From NCBI RefSeq assembly GCF_018390735.1, contig NZ_JAHBCL010000006.1:62001-126000 (forward strand): a stretch of 64,000 nt of DNA. Direction: 5' to 3'. Position numbers and translations under genes: made by a program. This document shows positions 1-39,372 of the stretch, piece after piece. The stretch's first letter is position 1. Each line of letters starts with the position of its first letter. Under the pieces are notes generated by a model that saw nothing but the letters and a program-made list of their open reading frames with translations, was not told the DNA's origin and did no database searches. Source of the DNA: Fusibacter paucivorans (GTDB taxonomy: Bacteria; Bacillota; Clostridia; Peptostreptococcales; Acidaminobacteraceae).

Positions 1-101
1 TTGTTATCGAAAAAAAAGATAACGGCCTCCCCAGCAGCAATATCTTGTGTTGCTGTCACGACATTGTCGCGCTGATTTAGTAATACTGTGTTGGTCTTCA
101 T
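1..101 (-). CDS. UxaA-type SAF domain protein, N-terminal part only (cut by the window edge)
   Basis: The minus strand reads from an ATG at 101 off the left edge. The 33 visible residues (MKTNTVLLNQRDNVVTATQD...) have the DNV.TA..DI.AGE pattern of the SAF domain in the small subunit or N-terminal domain of altronate/galactarate-type dehydratases (UxaA family). A GGAG lies about a dozen bases upstream of the ATG. It follows the KDG permease by 46 bp on the same strand, so it is probably in the same sigma-54 driven operon. The context suggests a sugar-acid dehydratase supplying or using 2-keto-3-deoxy acids. The catalytic part would lie outside the window, so the substrate is not known. Confidence 0.7.
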   Translation of the reverse strand, partial: MKTNTVLLNQRDNVVTATQDIAAGEAVIFFFDN

Positions 102-147
102 TTTTCTTTTACACTCCATTTTTTTGGGATGACTGTGTGTACTGATT

Positions 148-1146
148 TTAAGCTTCGCTGACTTTCGTTTTTTTCATGAACCTCTCTTCAAAATCTGACA
201 TGCCGGTTTTCACTGATCCAAACCGTTTGGCGACAAAAGTGGTAATAACCGGTGTTAAGAGCGTCGTTACAATTACCGCAGCTGCAATTTGTGTTGTCGC
301 CACTTCAACCAATGGTGCCATAGCGGGAACCGCCAACGCAACAGCTGCCGGCGTCGCTACCGAATTGCCTGCCGCACTCGAAGCCGCAGCTGCAGCATAG
401 CCCGGACGGCGATTGATGTAGCGATCTGCGAAAAACATCGGAATACCGCTAACGAAAACGACTAATAATCCGAGCAGTACACCTGAAGCACCTGCACTTA
501 CAACATTTGTGAGCTTAATGCCGGCACCGAGGCCAAAAGCAAAAAACGGAATGAGCAACGAGACACCCGGTGTTAAAAATGTTTTGATTTTCGGATCGAG
601 ATTACCGAGCAAACAACCGAAGAGAATTGGGGAAATTGCAGCAAACAGACTCATGAAAGGTATATTTGCCATCCCTGTAGCACCTAATGCCACCAATGTT
701 AAAAACGGTCCATCATTGATATTCATAACAGCCTGTGATGCAATGTCTGTCGAATCACCGTATTCGCTGGCGAGCGCCATAAAAAGGCCGCCATTTGAAT
801 TTGTCACACTGCTGATAATAGCCAGTGTTGAAATGCCCATGAAACCAGCTGGACCCGTAACACGTCCAACGATGTAGCCAAACAAGGCACCTGCAATAAA
901 TTTGGTGATCAATAAGACGCCGCCGCGTTTGATCGCCGCCGGAGCATTTTTAAAATCAATTTGCGCCCCTACGCAAACCAGAAAAAATGCAATGGCAGGC
1001 GTCGCTGCTGCCTTTGAAAAATACGCACTATGCAGGCCGCCAAGTTCCAATACCTGCGGCAAAAAAGTGTTGAGCAGTGAACCAATCAGAAGCGGTATAA
1101 CCATTAGGCCACCCGGCACCCTCTTGACGTTATCCAATATGTTCAT
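148..1146 (-). CDS. kdgT: 2-keto-3-deoxygluconate permease (KdgT family)
   Basis: This is a hydrophobic protein of about 332 residues with roughly ten membrane segments and the KdgT signature (N-terminal VKRVPGGLMVIPLLIGSLLN, central TNSNGGLF and NDGPFLT). The family imports 2-keto-3-deoxygluconate by proton symport across the cytoplasmic membrane. I start it at the second ATG (MNIL), because GGATGG lies 8 bases before it and the first ATG of the track is inside that sequence; E. coli KdgT also begins close to the PGG motif. A consensus sigma-54 promoter lies 64 bp upstream and the sigma-54 activator gene is next to it. The substrate could be a related keto-deoxy acid. Confidence 0.88.
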   Translation of the reverse strand: MNILDNVKRVPGGLMVIPLLIGSLLNTFLPQVLELGGLHSAYFSKAAATPAIAFFLVCVGAQIDFKNAPAAIKRGGVLLITKFIAGALFGYIVGRVTGPAGFMGISTLAIISSVTNSNGGLFMALASEYGDSTDIASQAVMNINDGPFLTLVALGATGMANIPFMSLFAAISPILFGCLLGNLDPKIKTFLTPGVSLLIPFFAFGLGAGIKLTNVVSAGASGVLLGLLVVFVSGIPMFFADRYINRRPGYAAAAASSAAGNSVATPAAVALAVPAMAPLVEVATTQIAAAVIVTTLLTPVITTFVAKRFGSVKTGMSDFEERFMKKTKVSEA

Positions 1147-1209
1147 AACGCTAACCATCCTTTTTTTGAGTATTTAGAATAAACATTTGACCGGTCGATA
1201 TTTGAATAT

Positions 1210-1225
1210 CGCAATTCTCGTGCCA
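1210..1225 (-). promoter_or_regulatory. Sigma-54 (-24/-12) promoter of the kdgT operon
   Basis: On the minus strand the sequence reads TGGCACG-AGAA-TTGC, which matches the consensus TGGCACGN4TTGCW, with the GG and GC elements 10 bases apart as required. It lies 64 bp upstream of the kdgT start and downstream of an enhancer-binding protein gene. A possible upstream activator site is the imperfect inverted repeat TTGCCCA/TGGGTAA at 1310-1338, about 100 bp further upstream. That second element is only suggestive. Confidence 0.88.
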
Positions 1226-1347: not shown

Positions 1348-1385
1348 AAAAAAACGGCAGCTATGGTATTCTGCCATAGCTGCCG
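1348..1385 (-). terminator. Intrinsic terminator of the PrpR_N-type activator gene
   Basis: A perfect 12-bp stem (CGGCAGCTATGG / CCATAGCTGCCG, loop of 7) is followed on the minus strand by seven T. It lies just after the activator stop codon and separates it from the sigma-54 promoter of kdgT. Confidence 0.9.
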
Positions 1386-1406
1386 CTGTATATTGCTACA
1401 GTTATC

Positions 1407-3320
1407 TTATAATGGGATCGAAAGCAATTTGATTTTACGAACCAGCGTCGTTCGGTCGATACCGAGCGCAAGCGCCGCCTTTGTACGATTGCCGTCATTT
1501 CGCTTTAGCGCCATTTCGATCGCCTGTCGCTCAATAGCCGCCAACGTCTGATCAAAAGGGTCTTTCAAGTCATCATTCAGTTGTCGCTGAAAGCAGTTTC
1601 GAATAAACGATACCATCGATTCACCAACAATCCCTCGCTGTTGAATGACAATAACCTTTTCAACGACATTTTCAAGTTCGCGAATATTCCCAGGCCAGCT
1701 GTATTGTTCAAACAGCTGAATAACGTCTTTTGAAAAACCTTCAACACGCCGATCAAGTTTCTGATTGATACGCTTGCGCAGGCTGTCCATTAAAATGGGA
1801 ATATCACCCTTTCGCTCCCGAAGCGGTGGTAAAATCAAATTCAAAACGTTCAATCGATAATAGAGATCTTCTCGATAGCGCCCCTGACGCATCTCATCCA
1901 GCAAGTCGCGATTGGTCGCTGCGATGACGCGAACATCTACGGGGATCACTCTAATATCACCAATCCGCATGACTTCTTGCTCCTGCAAAACACGCAGCAA
2001 TTTTGCCTGCATGCTCTTTTCGATTTCACCAATTTCGTCAAGGAATATCGTTCCCTTATGTGCCAGTTCAAAGAGCCCCATTTTGCCGCCCTTTTTGGCA
2101 CCGGTAAAGGCGCCGTCTCGATAGCCAAAGAGTTCACTCTCGAGCAGATTTGCCGGCAGTGCTGAACAATTAATCGCTACAAAGGGGCCCTGAGCCCGCT
2201 TGCTTGCATTGTGTATAGACTGTGCAAAGAGTTCTTTCCCCGTCCCCGTTTCACCGGTTAATAAAATCGTCGAATCCGTGCCGCTAAAATTTTGTGCAAG
2301 TTCAATCGTCGTTACAACCGACTGGCTATTGCCGATAATATTGGTAAAATGATATTTGGCCGTCAAGCGCCGTTCAACCAGTTCTTTCCGGATACTGCTC
2401 TCCATATTTACAATCTGTGATGCACGGTGCATAAAAGCGATCGCACCCTTAATTTCACCGTTGACGAGCATCGGCACCCGATCCACCATCACATTGACTC
2501 CAAAAAATGCTTCCATCTGCTCCATTTCCGCATCTTCACAAGAAAGAAAATCATATAGTCGAAGTGACGGCAGTACCATTTTGCTGTGTCGTCCTGCACA
2601 GTCTTTTAGCTGTATCTTAAGCAATTCCTCAGCAACCGCATTCATATTGATAATCATATCATTTTGATCAATAACGAGAATACCGCTCTGAGAATAATCC
2701 AAAACCGTTTTTAACACTTGGTGACGGCTTTTTTCACGCTGTTTGGCATAGAAAACCGCAATCGCACTTTCTATCGCCTGTCTCACAGATGGTTTTTGAG
2801 AATGCAGCATTTCATAACGAATATTTCTGGCCTTTAGGCCATCCTGATATTCAATCCCCCAGCTGCCGCCGATAAATAATTCAATGCCGTCAGCCATGGC
2901 TTGCTGCGTTTTTGCCTCAAACTCACTAACGTGATCGACTTGATAATAGTGCAAATCCAAACGCAGTTTTTCGTTTATCTTACGGCACCCTTCTATAAAG
3001 TCAGCCCCTTCTATAATACCGATTGGTTCATTAAAATCTTTATACTTAAACAATACATCAAAAAATTCATAACCTGTAAAGGGAATATTGATCACTTCTA
3101 CATCAATATTTTTCGCAATCGCCTTTGCCAAATTACCACGGCTTACAATAATTTCAACACCACGCCGTCTATAGGCATCCGCCACTGCAAGTGCATTGTC
3201 GATAACTATTTTTTCAATCGCAATGTTGATCGCTAATTCTTGGGTAATTGTCTTAGCTAGCTCAATCAGTTCATCATAGGGTAATAAAATCGCAATATTA
3301 TTTTCAATACAGTCCTTCAA
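1407..3320 (-). CDS. Sigma-54 dependent activator with PrpR_N sensor domain
   Basis: This 637-aa protein has a PrpR_N/propionate-activator-like N-terminal sensor (about residues 10-180), a PAS-like segment (about 200-300) and an AAA+ sigma-54 activation domain (about 320-560) with Walker A GETGTGKE, the sigma-54 contact loop GAFTGA and LDEIGE. A Fis-type helix-turn-helix ends it (AALALGIDRTTL). The start is TTG, supported by GGAGG 5 bases upstream. It faces the consensus sigma-54 promoter of kdgT on the same strand, so it is the likely activator of the KDG permease operon. PrpR_N domains usually sense small organic acids; the ligand here is presumably a keto-deoxy sugar acid, which is inference. 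Confidence 0.88.
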   Translation of the reverse strand: MKDCIENNIAILLPYDELIELAKTITQELAINIAIEKIVIDNALAVADAYRRRGVEIIVSRGNLAKAIAKNIDVEVINIPFTGYEFFDVLFKYKDFNEPIGIIEGADFIEGCRKINEKLRLDLHYYQVDHVSEFEAKTQQAMADGIELFIGGSWGIEYQDGLKARNIRYEMLHSQKPSVRQAIESAIAVFYAKQREKSRHQVLKTVLDYSQSGILVIDQNDMIINMNAVAEELLKIQLKDCAGRHSKMVLPSLRLYDFLSCEDAEMEQMEAFFGVNVMVDRVPMLVNGEIKGAIAFMHRASQIVNMESSIRKELVERRLTAKYHFTNIIGNSQSVVTTIELAQNFSGTDSTILLTGETGTGKELFAQSIHNASKRAQGPFVAINCSALPANLLESELFGYRDGAFTGAKKGGKMGLFELAHKGTIFLDEIGEIEKSMQAKLLRVLQEQEVMRIGDIRVIPVDVRVIAATNRDLLDEMRQGRYREDLYYRLNVLNLILPPLRERKGDIPILMDSLRKRINQKLDRRVEGFSKDVIQLFEQYSWPGNIRELENVVEKVIVIQQRGIVGESMVSFIRNCFQRQLNDDLKDPFDQTLAAIERQAIEMALKRNDGNRTKAALALGIDRTTLVRKIKLLSIPL

Positions 3321-37314: not shown

Positions 37315-39372
37315 TTAATCGATCAAATGGTATTTCTTTGCTTTTGCCGATACCGTTTTATGGTTAATACCCAGCGCCTTACCGGCAGCATTGCAGCTTC
37401 CATATTGAAGCAGTGCATGTTCAATAATTCGCTTTTCGTAGGTCTCCCACGACTCTACTTTTCCGGAACTGACTTCGACAATTTCTGCTGTTTGAATCTC
37501 TGAAGACGGCATGTGTTCAATGACATATGACGGCAAGTCCTTTAATGTCACCACATCGCCTTCCAACAGCAATAATGTTCTTTCCAGCAGATTCTCCAGT
37601 TCTCGAATATTGCCAGGCCAAGGGTAGCTTATCAACGCGTCCATTACGCTGCGCGCATAGGTGACTTTCGATTTTGAAAGTTCTTCACAAATACGTTTTG
37701 TAAATGTCTCCACCAGTATTGCGATATCTTCTTTACGTTCTCGAAGCGGCGGCAATAGAATGGGAATAACGTTTAAGCGATAATAGAGATCTTCTCGAAA
37801 ACTTCCCTCTTTAACCAAATCTTCCAGCCTGCGATTTGTCGCTGCGATAATGCGGATGTCCAATTTAATCGTCTCTTCACCGCCAACACGCTGAAATTCC
37901 CTATTTTGGACAACTCTTAGCAGTTTTACCTGCATGTTTTTATCCATTTCACCGATTTCATCCAGAAAAATGGTGCCATTGTTGGCGAGTTCAAACTTAC
38001 CATATTTCGTTTTATAAGCACCTGTAAAAGCACCTTTTTCATGACCAAACAATTCGCTTTCCATCAGTGTCGGCGGAATTGCCGCACAGTTGACTCGGAT
38101 AAACGGTTCACCTGCGCGATCGCTGGAATAGTGTATCGCCTCGGCCATTAATTCTTTGCCTGTTCCGCTTTCGCCATTGATCATGACGGTATAACGGCTC
38201 CCGGCCGCTTTAGAGGCAATCGCCATCGCATCCATTATCTTGCCCCCAGTTCCAATGATACGGTCAAATGCAGGGCCAATCTTTTTGGTACGTATGAGTT
38301 CTTCTTCAAGATAAGCTGCTTTGGCTGATACCTTGTGCAGTTTATCCACCAGTTCTTTCACTGCCGTAATATCTTTCACAACGGATAAAACGCCAGTGCC
38401 GCGACCATCTACAATAATGGGCGTCACATTGGCAATAATCTGTGTCCCATTGCTTTTCGTGGTAATGCCGCCGATTATTTTTCGCCCAGAGTTCAGCACT
38501 TTTGCACGATTGCCTTTCGGTGCCACTTCCATAACATTTTTGCCAATGAGATTTTCATAGCTCTCACCACAAATTTTTTGGTAAGCCGCGTTAATGTACG
38601 TAATGACTCCCGTTTGATTAATCACACAGATGCCGTCTTGAACGGTTTCAAGAATCAATTGATATTTTTCTTTGAGTTCTTTAATTTCGTTAAGTTCCCA
38701 AGAGATATGGACCAGTTTTGTAATATCTTCAAAAATACTGATCGCGCCTTTACACGATTGATCAATCATAATCGGCGTCACATTTGAAACAACGGTAAAT
38801 TGGCCAATGCGATTGGTATAGGCAATTTCGGGTTTGAGCGTCTTAACCACTTGAGGCAACCTCGAATTGGGCAGTACATCGAGAATCTTTTTGCCGATTA
38901 CCGAGCTTGCGGACATACCGAAGATTCGTTCGGCCTCGCTATTAAACATGATAATGTCTTCTTTTTCATTGATTACGACAAGACCATTCGCAATATGTTT
39001 AAAAATATTGTCTGCCGTCAGTAAATTATTCTGTAAGATATCGTCAATTTTATAAATGGCATTTGGATCGCCAAAAGAAAAGCCCCCCTCTAAAAAGCGT
39101 TTCATTTCATCAGACGCTTCATTCGCAAGCTCGCCATAAGTCACAAGTTCCAAAATGTCATTTGCCTTAATCCGCAATTCGATTAAGAGTAAAATACTGT
39201 CTAGCGGCACTTCTGAATAACCGTCTTTTTGCACTTTAAAAATGACGTTATACCGGTTCTGAAGTTCTCCGGCCTTATGTACGACCATCGCTGCAACACG
39301 GGCATGCATACCTTTTTCATGTCGAAAAGTTACTTCTGTTCGGATACTATCTTGCGTGATGGTGTTGAGCAT
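37315..39372 (-). CDS. Sigma-54 activator with N-terminal HPr-like domain and two PAS domains
   Basis: The 685-aa protein begins with an HPr-like domain (about 10-95; TFRHEKGMHARVAAMVVHKA), keeping the phosphoacceptor His23 and Arg25 while the usual proline is Val. Two PAS domains follow (about 110-220 and 235-350). Next is an AAA+ activator domain (about 375-605; GESGTGKELMAE, GAFTGA, LDEIGEM), and a Fis-type helix-turn-helix at the C-terminus (AAGKALGINHKTVSAK). AGGAGGT precedes the ATG. It lies next to the sigma-54 dha operon with its own enzyme I and HPr, so phosphorylation by the PTS relay probably reports dihydroxyacetone or PEP status. That last point is inference. Confidence 0.87.
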   Translation of the reverse strand: MLNTITQDSIRTEVTFRHEKGMHARVAAMVVHKAGELQNRYNVIFKVQKDGYSEVPLDSILLLIELRIKANDILELVTYGELANEASDEMKRFLEGGFSFGDPNAIYKIDDILQNNLLTADNIFKHIANGLVVINEKEDIIMFNSEAERIFGMSASSVIGKKILDVLPNSRLPQVVKTLKPEIAYTNRIGQFTVVSNVTPIMIDQSCKGAISIFEDITKLVHISWELNEIKELKEKYQLILETVQDGICVINQTGVITYINAAYQKICGESYENLIGKNVMEVAPKGNRAKVLNSGRKIIGGITTKSNGTQIIANVTPIIVDGRGTGVLSVVKDITAVKELVDKLHKVSAKAAYLEEELIRTKKIGPAFDRIIGTGGKIMDAMAIASKAAGSRYTVMINGESGTGKELMAEAIHYSSDRAGEPFIRVNCAAIPPTLMESELFGHEKGAFTGAYKTKYGKFELANNGTIFLDEIGEMDKNMQVKLLRVVQNREFQRVGGEETIKLDIRIIAATNRRLEDLVKEGSFREDLYYRLNVIPILLPPLRERKEDIAILVETFTKRICEELSKSKVTYARSVMDALISYPWPGNIRELENLLERTLLLLEGDVVTLKDLPSYVIEHMPSSEIQTAEIVEVSSGKVESWETYEKRIIEHALLQYGSCNAAGKALGINHKTVSAKAKKYHLID

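Follow-up and report, generated by a model that had tools for sequence, protein, structure and literature searches.

A sigma-54 promoter and a neighbouring PrpR_N-type activator as the likely control of a kdgT operon variant that ends in a LeuA-fold lyase gene

In the 64-kb stretch of DNA analysed here (the window), an exact sigma-54 promoter stands between the gene of a PrpR_N-containing activator and an operon that begins with kdgT, and both the order of these genes and their conservation are directly apparent in the sequences of several genomes. The arrangement is best explained, with a probability of roughly 0.8, as a one-component, inducer-controlled sigma-54 operon; as a design, its control by sigma-54 together with the neighbouring activator is very likely. 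We infer the binding site of the activator, its ligand, the reactions of the enzymes and a role for a palindrome at the start point as parts of the following scheme. Sigma-54 RNA polymerase would wait at 1225-1211, and the PrpR_N activator from the gene just upstream would bind an upstream site about 140 nt away, most likely the TRT-N11-AYA repeat at approximately 1362-1378. A small carboxylic acid, either the pathway substrate or its dehydration product, might be bound by the PrpR_N domain as the inducer, upon which the AAA+ domain with its GAFTGA motif would open the promoter. The transcript would then supply an acid importer of the KdgT family, a UxaA-type dehydratase in two parts, predicted to convert a 2,3-dihydroxy acid to a 2-keto-3-deoxy acid, and a LeuA-fold lyase, the probable role of which is to cleave this product. 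A second regulator, probably a repressing one, might act at the palindrome.

The promoter is the exact match TGGCACGAGAATTGC in the window letters, read on the minus strand from 1225 to 1211, 53 nt upstream of the kdgT ORF and 182 nt past the stop of the activator gene (Table 1). It conforms to the consensus TGGCAY-N5-TTGC with its invariant GG and GC; a small departure is the G that follows TTGC, where the clostridial consensus has T or A. The first-pass annotation had placed a consensus sigma-54 promoter before kdgT, and this is upheld by the exact -24/-12 match along with the comparative evidence given below. The exact form TGGCAYNNNNNTTGC is found twice in the 64-kb window as against 0.61 matches expected from shuffles. 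In 47 kdgT loci the sigma-54 pattern occurs at a frequency of 0.014 per strand-kb, which amounts to about 0.004 chance sites in the approximately 250 nt from activator to kdgT. Genome-wide, the pattern with a following A or T (TGGCAYNNNNNTTGCW) has 56 sites versus 4 for the reversed control, indicating that sigma-54 is clearly used, or was recently used, by this genome. A second perfect site in the window (TGGCATGTATTTTGC, 37138-37124 on the minus strand) separates the gene of a PTS-HPr/PAS sigma-54 activator (37315-39372) from a DAK2-domain/dhaL gene. It is a candidate promoter of a dha operon, and the arrangement resembles the DhaQ-dhaKLM regulon of Nie 2019 (PMC6615313).

Table 1. Features of the kdgT operon, its regulatory region and the rpoN gene (positions are those of the window unless a locus is named)
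Feature	Position	Strand	Remarks
SAF-domain small subunit of UxaA-type dehydratase, start	1..104	-	continues in L009:13806-14105
KdgT-family permease, operon gene 1	148..1158 (start 1158 or 1146)	-	PF03812, 380.5 bits
Palindrome (T/C)GACCGGTCA, candidate operator	1188..1197	.	12-13 nt after TTGC
Sigma-54 promoter (-24/-12), TGGCACG-AGAA-TTGC	1211..1225	-	exact pattern match; same element in related loci
Terminator-like hairpin of activator gene	1353..1387	-	17-mer is the hairpin core in the window
Candidate activator-binding site TATGGCAGAATACCATA (TRT-N11-AYA)	1362..1378	-	within the inverted repeat/terminator that follows the activator gene
Sigma-54 activator	1407..3320	-	PrpR_N 29-196, PAS 205-281, AAA+ with GAFTGA, lid, Fis-type HTH
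UxaA large part	L009:12641-13801	-	second and C-terminal domains of galactarate/altronate dehydratase
LeuA/NifV-like HMGL protein, 403 residues	L009:11415-12626	-	downstream of UxaA
rpoN halves	L114 (G000:C39:17000-20661) and L115 (G000:C1:1-1500)		

A scan of named genomes recovered KdgT proteins that are 97% identical in a MAG of the same genus as the window organism, and 81-84% identical in a Halothermothrix MAG, Sporosalibacterium faouarense and Lutispora saccharofermentans. All five genomes share the order activator, sigma-54 site, kdgT, SAF, UxaA, HMGL, which is termed type B here. In the three distant named organisms KdgT, UxaC and HMGL of this five-gene unit are 78-84% identical, and the genes flanking the unit differ from one organism to another. 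The commoner class A is typified by the order activator, sigma-54 site, SAF, UxaA, KdgT, and in several of its operons (L029, L038, L048, L049, L052 and L058) KdgT is followed by a DUF1537-type kinase and a PdxA-like gene, suggesting four-carbon acid sugars rather than 2-keto-3-deoxygluconate (KDG) for the XduR-type systems (see below). In a third set, kdgT-SAF-UxaA is accompanied by a regulator of the IclR type and an aldolase of the DHDPS family, with neither a sigma-54 activator nor a sigma-54 site. The sigma-54 element is present in all type-B loci, being kept at the orthologous place in L039, L040, L041 and L042, and in nearly all class-A loci. A strict site was found at 14 of the 15 kdgT loci that have a PrpR_N activator next to them as against 1 of the 32 without one (Fisher p = 6e-10, a value that serves as a guide only since the 47 loci are phylogenetically non-independent). 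The sole exception among the activator-linked loci, L048, has TGGCATGATTATTGA, which is one base off, and L034 has a site in the absence of an adjacent activator. This co-occurrence over 47 loci is much stronger evidence than the single match in the window, and in this form the part of the earlier claim that concerned sigma-54/PrpR_N control stands, as control of the kdgT operon rather than of KDG uptake.

Alignment of the five type-B regions between activator and kdgT revealed three conserved blocks, namely an inverted repeat, the sigma-54 site and the palindrome. The last spans approximately +2 to +12 relative to the predicted start, with the same spacing in the window, L039, L040, L041 and L042, and has the form TGACCGGTCA, with TGACTAGTCA in one genome and CGACCGGTCA in the window. 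The composite sigma54-N8-20-GACYRGTC has exactly one match per genome in five of five genomes, in each case at this operon, and its reversed control has no match in the same five, though the patterns of these intergenic elements were picked after inspecting the sequences. The palindrome may point to a second regulator, probably a repressing one. The conserved inverted repeat contains copies of TRTGGCANNATNCNAYA and lies some 140 to 290 nt upstream; the 17-mer TRTGGCANNANNCNAYA occurs once or twice at the equivalent place in each of the five genomes and is rare elsewhere in them. A simple search for TGT-N-ACA gave no consistent activator site; comparison of the inverted repeats did give one, and the 17-mer is a likely candidate for the activator-binding site (UAS). 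The site of XduR is described as TGT-N10-12-ACA in Nie 2019 (PMC6615313), to which the type-B TRT-N11-AYA is close and lies in the expected place, though inside a terminator-like hairpin. Given this overlap, its conservation could partly reflect termination.

The promoter may be silent in this strain, and it is possible, although less likely than not, that it is a relic there, with rpoN inactivated and the whole sigma-54 regulon silent or decaying, a situation that would be compatible with the scheme outlined above. The single rpoN gene of the assembly is split over two contig ends, which jointly cover the whole model, with the break separating the N-terminal region from the core-binding domain, and there is no second rpoN in the genome assembly. 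Both breaks abut the 14-bp sequence CCTGAATTATTCAT in opposite orientation, and TTGAG is repeated on both sides; such inverted ends combined with a duplication are a signature of an inserted element, and rpoN appears to be interrupted by one. Should this interruption be real, the strain probably has no functional sigma-54 promoters, and the genome would amount to a naturally occurring sigma-54 knock-out that has kept its regulon intact. Against decay of the regulon, the operon, its activator and the other sigma-54 activators are all intact, which would imply that any loss of rpoN is recent or confined to part of the population. Furthermore, the interrupting element was not seen at the 40 other contig ends examined, and a mis-assembly or a mixed population is a possible alternative source of the split.

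Turning to the activator of the sigma-54 operon, its gene encodes a protein of 637 residues with Pfam PrpR_N, PAS, Sigma54_activat and HTH_8 domains, in which the AAA+ module with GAFTGA and the Fis-type HTH are those of a sigma-54 activator (bEBP). PrpR_N (PF06506) scores 101.9 bits against a gathering cut-off of 29.1, in agreement with the initial identification of such an activator next to the promoter. The protein reaches 365.6 bits with the PrpR equivalog TIGR02329, under the cut-off of 499.2, and no prp genes lie near it in the window and the adjoining contig sequence. In a maximum-likelihood tree (which left out the activator C86) the five type-B activators make up a single clade with full support, separate from class A and from C. 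difficile XduR; orthology to the latter was not recovered in this tree, the C. difficile-type row grouping with class A. The type-B sensor domains are 21-31% identical to those of class A and XduR. The motif SRGG(T/N), carried by most PrpR_N sequences, takes the form (S/A)RGNL in type B, and is followed there by TGYEF as against (G/S)(Y/F/H)D in class A. The type-B activators could plausibly respond to a different ligand. As an orthologue probe across the class the sensor domain alone recovered weak paralogues only, kdgT being the better probe, and a search of viral contigs with this domain gave no matches.

The genome encodes nine PrpR_N proteins. Five other activators (C11, C22, C26, C86 and C96) are each directly followed by a sigma-54 site, and those of C77, C11, C96 and C26 adjoin LeuC/LeuD-type dehydratase genes, some along with transporters or PdxA-like genes, these gene names being readings of the sequences rather than profile matches. 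In this genome PrpR_N seems to serve organic-acid operons as a sensor of general use, which renders the "new ligand class" of the first-pass annotation less surprising than had been held. The emphasis on propionate in its premise about the domain is not borne out by the nine proteins found here, most of which are beside other organic-acid operons. Loci L074-L079 (contigs C77, C22, C11, C96, C26 and C30) are PrpR_N loci in which several sigma-54 activators immediately precede such organic-acid-type operons, mostly with a sigma-54 site separating the two. A further PrpR_N protein of about 290 aa, seemingly devoid of AAA+ and HTH domains, is encoded at L073:8398-9270 on the plus strand beside an amidase-like gene.

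On the genome contig the operon runs past the edge of the window, with kdgT, SAF, UxaA and HMGL all in one direction. KdgT scores 241.9 bits with the KDG transporter equivalog TIGR00793, far under its cut-off of 453.8, and the UxaA parts are far under the galactarate dehydratase cut-off. Both TLRDGEQ and the metal motif HxH are retained in the HMGL protein. In contrast, Ile stands in place of the Glu (xEDxxR) that five solved LeuA/homocitrate synthases have in common, and Val in place of the SGIH histidine of LeuA/homocitrate synthase; the closer homologues of the protein (to about 47% identity) have Ile for Glu and Val or Ile for His. Its assignment as an ordinary isopropylmalate synthase was rejected, as these key residues are missing and its scores lie below every equivalog cut-off. 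The homologues (L127-L141) occur in varied organic-acid clusters, two of them with SAF-UxaA, one of which also has a confirmed lactate-racemase-family gene; others are beside genes that read as fumarase-type hydro-lyases or 2-hydroxyacid dehydrogenases. This LeuA-fold subfamily is widespread and is probably misannotated as isopropylmalate or homocitrate synthase. We take the protein, as a guess, to be a metal-dependent lyase or aldolase that would act on the product of the dehydratase; the presence of an aldolase in the IclR-type kdgT-SAF-UxaC operons makes an aldolase-like step after the dehydratase plausible. Two further genes were observed in the region beyond the operon: a RuBisCO-like protein beside a PTS fructose-type transporter gene, about 7-10 kb from the operon end (L009:2512-3855, minus strand), and ferredoxin and iron-hydrogenase-like domains fused to a chemoreceptor signalling domain (L009:5694-7703, plus strand).

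On the whole, we tentatively propose, at a little short of even odds, that an undescribed pathway is controlled by a PrpR_N clade which is distinct from PrpR and XduR and senses a hydroxy or 2-keto-3-deoxy acid. The steps of this pathway would be uptake by a KdgT-type permease, dehydration of the UxaA type and a cleavage catalysed by a LeuA-fold lyase that lacks the Claisen catalytic residues, and a second regulator would act at the start-site palindrome. The initial suggestion had been KDG, in which case the activator would sense this compound and the promoter would serve its uptake in hexuronate or pectin breakdown. This would be consistent with the KdgT family and UxaA-type dehydratase of the operon, with the filing of kdgT-uxaA under pectin degradation in Nie 2019 (PMC6615313), and with the single KDPG-type aldolase gene found elsewhere in the genome in four of the five operon-bearing genomes. 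Nevertheless, it is rather improbable, since the KdgT equivalog and galactarate dehydratase cut-offs are missed, no uronate isomerase (PF02614) was found in the five genomes with the operon, and the longer operon ends in a gene for a LeuA-fold lyase rather than for a KDG kinase or KDPG aldolase. The DUF1537-type kinase and PdxA-like genes of the related class A likewise point to four-carbon acid sugars. KDG may thus be retained as a weakly supported candidate ligand among others. A further reading, in which a real promoter has a different activator or an overlapping sigma-70 promoter as its main driver and the neighbouring activator works elsewhere, is highly improbable: the genome has several further sigma-54 activators, a weak sigma-70-like match overlaps the site and at L034 a site stands without an adjacent activator, but activator, promoter and operon occur together in 14 or 15 loci from many genera, and sigma-70-like matches are about as frequent as chance predicts (9 vs 6.3 expected).

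The promoter is better read as serving a whole module of acid catabolism, which recurs as a unit in distant genera, than as serving KDG uptake. The type-B operon offers a well-defined case in which to test the sensing range of PrpR_N domains, and it draws attention to a subfamily of LeuA-fold lyases to which annotation pipelines will probably give the name isopropylmalate or homocitrate synthase despite the missing key residues.

The general arrangement is already known, and the type-B operon is a new variant of it. Nie 2019 (PMC6615313) predicted sigma-54-dependent control of kdgT-uxaA by XduR, filed as pectin degradation, and listed XduR in Alkaliphilus, Clostridioides, Clostridium and Geosporobacter. 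In C. difficile, kdgT1-uxaA has the promoter TTGGCATAGTAATTGCTTT and the regulator CD2869/XduR (Soutourina 2020, PMC7438776), and its expression in a sigL mutant is 0.12-0.23 of wild type (PMC7438776, Table 4). A 2025 survey includes altronate dehydratase among the sigma-54 targets of Bacillota (PMC12316311). The locus L033 carries TTGGCATAGTAATTGCTTT letter for letter before kdgT-SAF-UxaA, with an activator whose PrpR_N domain scores 173 bits, and its genome also carries the exact C. difficile prdA promoter, which makes C. difficile or a close relative its very probable source. Given the XduR precedent and the PrpR_N domain at L033, the combination of PrpR_N, sigma-54 and kdgT is not new, and the novelty initially claimed gives way to the published prediction and sigL dependence. 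For the type-B unit with the HMGL gene and start-site palindrome, a literature search of incomplete coverage found no description.

The window locus shares with the XduR system a sigma-54 promoter before kdgT and a split uxaA, and an adjacent PrpR_N/PAS/AAA+/Fis activator, and with its activator beside a kdgT-uxaA operon that has a sigma-54 site it shows the layout of an XduR regulon. It differs in that its activator belongs to a separate clade with the sensor motif SRGNLA/TGYEF in place of SRGGT/..(Y/F)D, and in that the operon ends in the LeuA-fold lyase and has a start-site palindrome; several class-A XduR-like operons have the order SAF-UxaC-KdgT-DUF1537-PdxA, unlike that of the window. 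As the activator clades differ, the C. difficile evidence transfers to the window operon only by analogy. The propionate/2-methylcitrate activator PrpR likewise combines a PrpR_N sensor with a sigma-54 activator, but the window protein has a PAS domain between sensor and AAA+, falls below the TIGR02329 cut-off and has no prp neighbours. The IclR-regulated operons (L026, L027, L028, L046 and L047) are reminiscent of the window operon in their kdgT-SAF-UxaC order with an aldolase-type gene thereafter, and the identity for KdgT and UxaC is 50-56%; in contrast, they have no sigma-54 site or PrpR_N activator, and their aldolase is of the DHDPS family rather than of the LeuA fold. Finally, LeuA, NifV and homocitrate synthase share with the last protein of the operon the HMGL-like domain, TLRDGEQ and HxH, and are set apart from it by the catalytic Glu and His, which are Ile and Val in the operon protein.
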